The position numbers and the translations under genes are program-made. The notes beneath the pieces were generated by a model that worked only from the letters and a program-made list of their open reading frames with translations, was not told the DNA's origin and ran no database searches. This document shows, in pieces, positions 27,760 through 28,442 of a stretch of 35,998 nucleotides of DNA. This DNA comes from Kandleria vitulina DSM 20405 (GTDB taxonomy: Bacteria > Bacillota_I > Bacilli_A > Erysipelotrichales > Coprobacillaceae), in assembly GCF_000702065.1 (NCBI RefSeq), contig NZ_JNKN01000022.1:1-35998 (forward strand). The letters are read 5' to 3'. Positions within the stretch are counted from its first letter, which is position 1; the number at the start of each line of letters is the position of its first letter.

Positions 27760-27795
27760 TTATGTTCTGCATTTCTCCATTCGCCGTACTTTCAT
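27760..27795 (-). CDS. Possible 11-residue Arg-rich leader peptide before argG
   Basis: Between the T-box terminator and argG lies an ORF encoding MKVRRMEKCRT, ending in TAA. It has an ideal ribosome site (AGGGGG, 6 bases before ATG), as good as that of argH. Three of its eleven codons are for arginine (CGG, CGA, AGA), two of them adjacent and of types that tend to be rare in AT-rich genomes. This suggests that translation of the leader senses charged tRNA-Arg, adding a second layer after the T-box. The coding role is not proven; a chance ORF is possible. Confidence 0.5.
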   Translation of the reverse strand: MKVRRMEKCRT

Positions 27796-28184: not shown

Positions 28185-28304
28185 TTATTCTTCTTCAACT
28201 TTTTCAAACTGATCTGGACCAACGCCACAGATTGGACATTCGTAGTCTTCTGGTAATTCGTCACCTTCATAGACATAACCGCATACTGTACAAACCCATT
28301 TCAT
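28185..28304 (-). CDS. Short rubredoxin-type iron protein (39 residues)
   Basis: This small electron-transfer protein has two Cys knuckles for one iron: CTVCGY (Cys5, Cys8) and [11 protein letters not shown] (Cys23, Cys26). It lacks the ~14-residue middle loop of normal 52-54 residue rubredoxins and so matches the C-terminal domain of rubrerythrins, here as a free protein. AGGAGG lies about 9 bases before the ATG, and it has its own terminator. A role in oxygen or peroxide defence, or as a small electron carrier, is likely but not shown. Confidence 0.92.
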
Positions 28305-28442
28305 AGTGTGTCTCCTCCTTCTTTATTAATAGGAATGATTCCTACTTATATAATATTCATATTATTTCTATCTTTCAAGAAATATGCTTCTATAATTATT
28401 ATAAAGTTTATCATTTTAAAAAAAAGAAAATTCGCACATTAC

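Follow-up and report, generated by a model that had tools for sequence, protein, structure and literature searches.

A conserved Arg-Arg leader ORF behind arginine T-boxes of Erysipelotrichales, a candidate second arginine sensor in series

In the gut bacterium Kandleria vitulina DSM 20405, an 11-codon ORF lies between a T-box riboswitch and argG. Is this ORF a translated leader that senses arginine a second time, behind a transcriptional sensor of the same amino acid? The proposal came from a sequence-only reading of a 35,998-nt stretch of contig NZ_JNKN01000022.1 (the window, to which all coordinates below refer). Its coordinates and reading of the ORF were exact. The Shine-Dalgarno (SD) sequence AGGGGG precedes the ATG by six bases, and argG starts 32 nt after the stop codon. 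On the minus strand the order is promoter, T-box with terminator, SD, leader ORF, argG, argH, argC, argJ and argB:

28081-28054, minus: sigma-70-like promoter, TTGACA and TAATAT 16 nt apart, TG ahead of the -10 (10 of 12 matches; a consensus match only)
28043-27836, minus: full-length T-box riboswitch RF00230, covariance-model score 128.7 bits, E 1.7e-28
27953-27951, minus: T-box specifier codon CGC (Arg), from the cmscan alignment, aligned with relatives
27847-27820, minus: T-box terminator hairpin, 12-pair stem and T run
27807-27802, minus: SD of the leader ORF, AGGGGG; a purine-rich SD is kept in relatives
27795-27760, minus: leader ORF MKVRRMEKCRT-stop, 11 codons (ATG AAA GTA CGG CGA ATG GAG AAA TGC AGA ACA TAA)
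27786-27781, minus: Arg-Arg codon pair CGG CGA, the conserved part of the ORF
27727-26513, minus: argG, argininosuccinate synthase (NCBIfam equivalog), the putative regulated gene
26502-22005, minus: argH, argC, argJ and argB, same direction, 3' of argG (NCBIfam)

The T-box scores above the RF00230 gathering threshold of 93 bits and contains the T-box core. Its specifier matches the amino acid of the downstream gene argG, arginine, and the 12-pair stem with its T run (27847-27820) forms a terminator able to compete with the antiterminator. The ORF does follow this terminator and precede argG, with 32 nt between its stop codon and the argG ATG (27727). The three Arg codons counted in the sequence-only reading are present, but only CGG CGA is conserved; the third, AGA, is not. 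A small rubredoxin-like ORF, judged by eye, is located just 5' of the T-box promoter (28186-28305, minus).

Conservation in relatives had been named as a check. The argG upstream regions were gathered across the order by ArgG similarity, blind to the ORF, and 47 of them contained a T-box core. A leader made of SD, start codon and Arg-Arg pair was present in 30 of these 47 unselected loci, with the pair at most six codons from the start and always CGR CGA. When the tails of these loci were dinucleotide-shuffled, the mean was 0.15 leaders and the maximum 2 for CGN-CGN, against the 30 observed. A chance ORF was rejected by these shuffles; the leader ORF is real. Among 15 argG leaders of the family, CGR-CGA is found in 100%: variation within the pair is confined to the third position of the first codon, where it is synonymous (G 0.80), and the flanks vary. 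The leader is absent from the other 17 loci, two of which (L139 and L272) keep a one-Arg remnant, MxxDRK. The T-box can thus work alone.

The search was extended to 315 genomes of the order (Erysipelotrichales) with a pattern combining the T-box core and CGRCGA. It matched 106 genomes, far above a reversed-pattern control. Of 90 pattern loci read, 88 are leaders, starting with ATG (83), GTG (4) or TTG (1). In all 88 the Arg-Arg pair is in frame, 0-6 codons after the start; it is CGA CGA in 77 and CGG CGA in 11, and half of the leaders have a third Arg. They span at least 24 genera, as counted from genome handles. The genes behind them are argG or substrate-binding lipoproteins of amino-acid ABC transporters, related to the lysine/arginine/ornithine type; the latter belong to amino-acid, probably arginine, transporter operons. 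Stem I alignment gave a CGC or CGT (Arg) specifier behind the leaders, L177 being left out of this reading, and the two matches without a leader (L142 and L168) both carry non-Arg specifiers. Loci picked by transporter similarity have the same leaders in most cases, with L319, L321 and L340 as exceptions. The check in relatives therefore came out in favour of the ORF: pair, frame and ribosome site are kept behind the Arg T-boxes of many genera, not only before argG but in a second gene context too. Judged from sequence comparison, the Arg T-box followed by an SD, a start codon and an early in-frame Arg-Arg pair is a conserved module of the order, placed before argG and ABC transporter operons.

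Seven Arg-type loci without a leader (L259, L319, L321, L340, L040, L297 and L301) have the gene ATG 59-84 nt after the T-box core, which is the position of the leader elsewhere. This arrangement suggests a clean loss or gain of the leader cassette. At ten other loci (L172, L180, L183, L184, L189, L191, L194, L198, L207 and L223) the Arg leader runs on in frame, uninterrupted by a stop codon, into the substrate-binding lipoprotein. If these fusions were translated in full, the signal peptide would be preceded by an N-terminal extension.

Two Arg T-boxes were found in the window genome, and both are followed by a leader. The second has a CGT specifier and the leader MIKMGMNRR-stop, with the pair CGG CGT before the stop codon, and precedes an ABC transporter operon related to transporters of arginine and other amino acids. 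Arg codons directly before the stop are also seen in several transporter leaders of the family (MIKMGMNRR-stop, MSFVNRVNLLR-stop, MEWMVFLR-stop and MRMSLRR-stop; CGG is favoured), the loci with leaders of this ending being L380:980-1131 (window genome), L382, L385 and L141. Non-Arg T-boxes of the window genome with a readable core have no leader and the gene ATG is about 60-70 nt after the core. This sample is partial: among both the 19 loci of the window genome and the 30 others sampled, the core pattern failed to detect several. The leader as a universal T-box feature was rejected: readable non-Arg T-boxes place the gene directly at the leader position. A Trp-Trp control pattern gave 3 matches in 294 genomes of the order, and the two that were read are genes with no leader. 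Outside the order, the CGRCGA pattern, the one Arg codon pair covered by these scans, gave 4 matches in 395 genomes of the class and 1 in 295 of the phylum; the printed stretches, from which the matches were judged, are not leader-like.

In 71 of 77 loci the leader starts 53-109 nt ahead of the gene start, while the leader stop wanders from 149 nt 5' of the gene, through an ATGA overlap with the gene start (10/77 loci), to in-frame fusion (10 loci); most leaders end 20-60 nt 5' of the gene. Four loci of one genus (L155, L156, L157 and L159) have 114-149 nt untranslated between leader and argG, compared to the usual 20-60 nt. Since the stop wanders and the start-to-gene distance is held, the conserved parts are the SD, the start, the Arg pair and the distance to the gene. 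This geometry agrees with a ribosome that stalls early and has to stay clear of another one initiating on the gene. Masking of the gene SD by a terminating ribosome cannot hold at every locus, because the stop is inconsistently placed relative to that SD.

RNA folding was then considered. No terminator is located 3' of the window leader, nor the alternative hairpins of a classical attenuator. Across 44 loci, the region between the leader SD and the start of the gene is no more stably folded than shuffled versions (mean z 0.03), the gene SD has an accessibility of 0.82 compared to 0.60 in shuffled sequences, and no fold couples the leader to the gene SD or masks that SD. The arginine-dependent fold sequestering the gene SD, known from speF, was likewise not found at these 44 loci. 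The lack of a downstream terminator and of folding beyond shuffles means that the leader is not a fold-switching attenuator, and a second attenuator behind the leader was rejected on both counts.

We consider it probable, from the comparative evidence, that the ORF is a translated Arg leader peptide and the second of two serial Arg sensors. The sequence-only proposal of a translational Arg-tRNA leader stacked behind a transcriptional T-box gains support from the conserved pair, frame and SD behind Arg T-boxes. When Arg-tRNA is scarce, the T-box would let RNA polymerase read through, and ribosomes starting on the leader would stall at the Arg-Arg pair, about 60 nt 5' of the gene start codon. 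Such a ribosome would leave the gene ribosome site free and may also shield the 5' part of the message. With abundant Arg-tRNA, ribosomes would traverse the leader towards or over the gene ribosome site and so cut the output from transcripts leaking past the terminator. T-box and leader would act in the same direction, both turning expression on under arginine shortage; we infer that stalling under arginine shortage raises expression, in line with the T-box. More tentatively, and with somewhat less than even confidence, we propose that the module joins an uncharged-tRNA sensor and a charged-tRNA sensor for one amino acid, in series throughout the order and without any link through RNA folding. 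The downstream message would be freed or shielded solely through the site of the stall, wherever the leader ends.

Codon usage and tRNA genes bear on what is sensed. Among 309 Arg codons in the window genes, CGA occurs 11 times and CGG never; the leader pair uses exactly CGG CGA. The draft window genome has tRNA-Arg with anticodons TCT and CCT only, in a set that must be incomplete, as tRNAs for Met, Ile and Cys are also missing. The single-contig relative G001 has tRNA-Arg(ACG). Once converted to inosine, this tRNA would read the specifier (CGC/CGU) and CGA alike, and the same tRNA may thus be sensed twice, by the T-box and by the leader.

A stalled ribosome could act on mRNA stability and not on initiation, shielding the 5' part of read-through transcripts from RNases when arginine is short, while freely read message decays. 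We regard this as somewhat unlikely. All it requires is that ribosomes stall early and that the SD closely follows the terminator, both of them conserved features, and it tolerates any stop position. It also has a precedent in Salmonella speF, where Arg-Arg pausing in orf34 yields RNase G-resistant mRNA (PMC6386406); the speF effect, however, requires an alternative RNA fold and a stop codon at a particular position, neither of which is conserved here.

Translational coupling, in which ribosomes finishing the leader re-initiate on the gene and the leader raises expression when arginine suffices, is improbable. The ATGA overlaps at 10/77 loci, the A-rich spacer and the open gene SD would suit it. 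However, one frame ends in ATGA by default, since these genes begin with ATG A, and most leaders end 20-60 nt 5' of the gene or, in some cases, are fused to it in frame. Moreover, coupling has a sign opposite to that of the T-box and leaves the Arg pair unexplained.

There is very little chance that CGRCGA is kept as a nucleotide element, for terminator pairing or as a protein site, and not as codons. The near-constant use of CGR CGA, with other Arg codons rare, and the ability of GACGA to pair with UCGUC of many T-box terminators would be accounted for in this way. Yet the distance from start codon to CGRCGA varies in whole codons only, the sole variable base is a synonymous third base, the second copy in the window genome is CGG CGT, and no fold enrichment was seen. 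CGGCGA is also kept where terminators are devoid of CGTC (GCACCTCTGG, L025, L028, L031 and L032). Pairing of such an element with the terminator was rejected, as RR codons persist in the absence of a complement and their spacing shifts by whole codons. Finally, a short, unselected ORF without function, to which the 17/47 argG T-box loci lacking it might point, is hardly credible and already contradicted by the comparative data: 30 leaders against 0.15 expected, a second gene context and restriction to Arg T-boxes.

The candidate leader sensor can be set beside known systems. In Bacillus subtilis rtpA (yczA, anti-TRAP), a Trp T-box and a Trp leader peptide provide tandem sensing by transcription and translation (Chen and Yanofsky, Science 2003; Mol Cell 2004, as cited in PMC11255114). 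The remark in the sequence-only reading that two sensors in series would be unusual stands insofar as one precedent is known, but rtpA shows that the plan is not without precedent. As in rtpA, a T-box terminator is followed by a short ORF with its own SD and a run of cognate codons, and then by the gene; by analogy, one amino acid would be read both as uncharged tRNA, in transcription, and as charged tRNA, in translation. In rtpA, the leader ends just a few bases 5' of the SD of the gene. Here the gap is 32 nt and varies in relatives, so that a terminating ribosome is not placed to cover the gene SD, and for this reason we do not assign the Arg tandem to the exact rtpA mechanism. Unlike rtpA, which concerns tryptophan and a regulator gene, the present tandem concerns arginine and genes of biosynthesis and transport, is spread across the order, and has an Arg pair within codons 2-8 and a stop whose position varies. 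To our knowledge, the Trp system of B. subtilis rtpA is the only known tandem of T-box and leader peptide. No published Arg T-box with an Arg leader was found in a literature search whose reach excluded key T-box surveys. Amino acid, genes, spread and geometry of the Arg tandem thus appear new relative to rtpA.

Ribosomes pausing at two Arg codons of Salmonella speF orf34 change what becomes of the mRNA, and CGACGA works in place of the native codons (PMC6386406). The Salmonella/E. coli orf34 (speFL) shares with the present leaders two consecutive Arg codons, which there sense arginine by pausing (PMC6386406). Unlike them it lacks a T-box. It is also longer and comes with a conserved peptide domain, Rho, RNase G and alternative RNA folds (PMC6386406), and no such feature is seen here. 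The leaders also resemble the classical attenuators trpL and hisL, in which a cognate-codon leader peptide precedes a biosynthesis operon; unlike these, they have no terminator/antiterminator 3' of the leader, the sole terminator being upstream and the T-box's own.

The natural series of changing stops, in-frame fusions and losses lets models of occlusion, coupling and mRNA protection be compared. The purpose of the stacked check is perhaps to block protein synthesis from transcripts that leak past the terminator. The Arg tandem recurs in at least 24 genera and before two kinds of gene, which suggests that adding a translational check to a T-box is a solution of general use.
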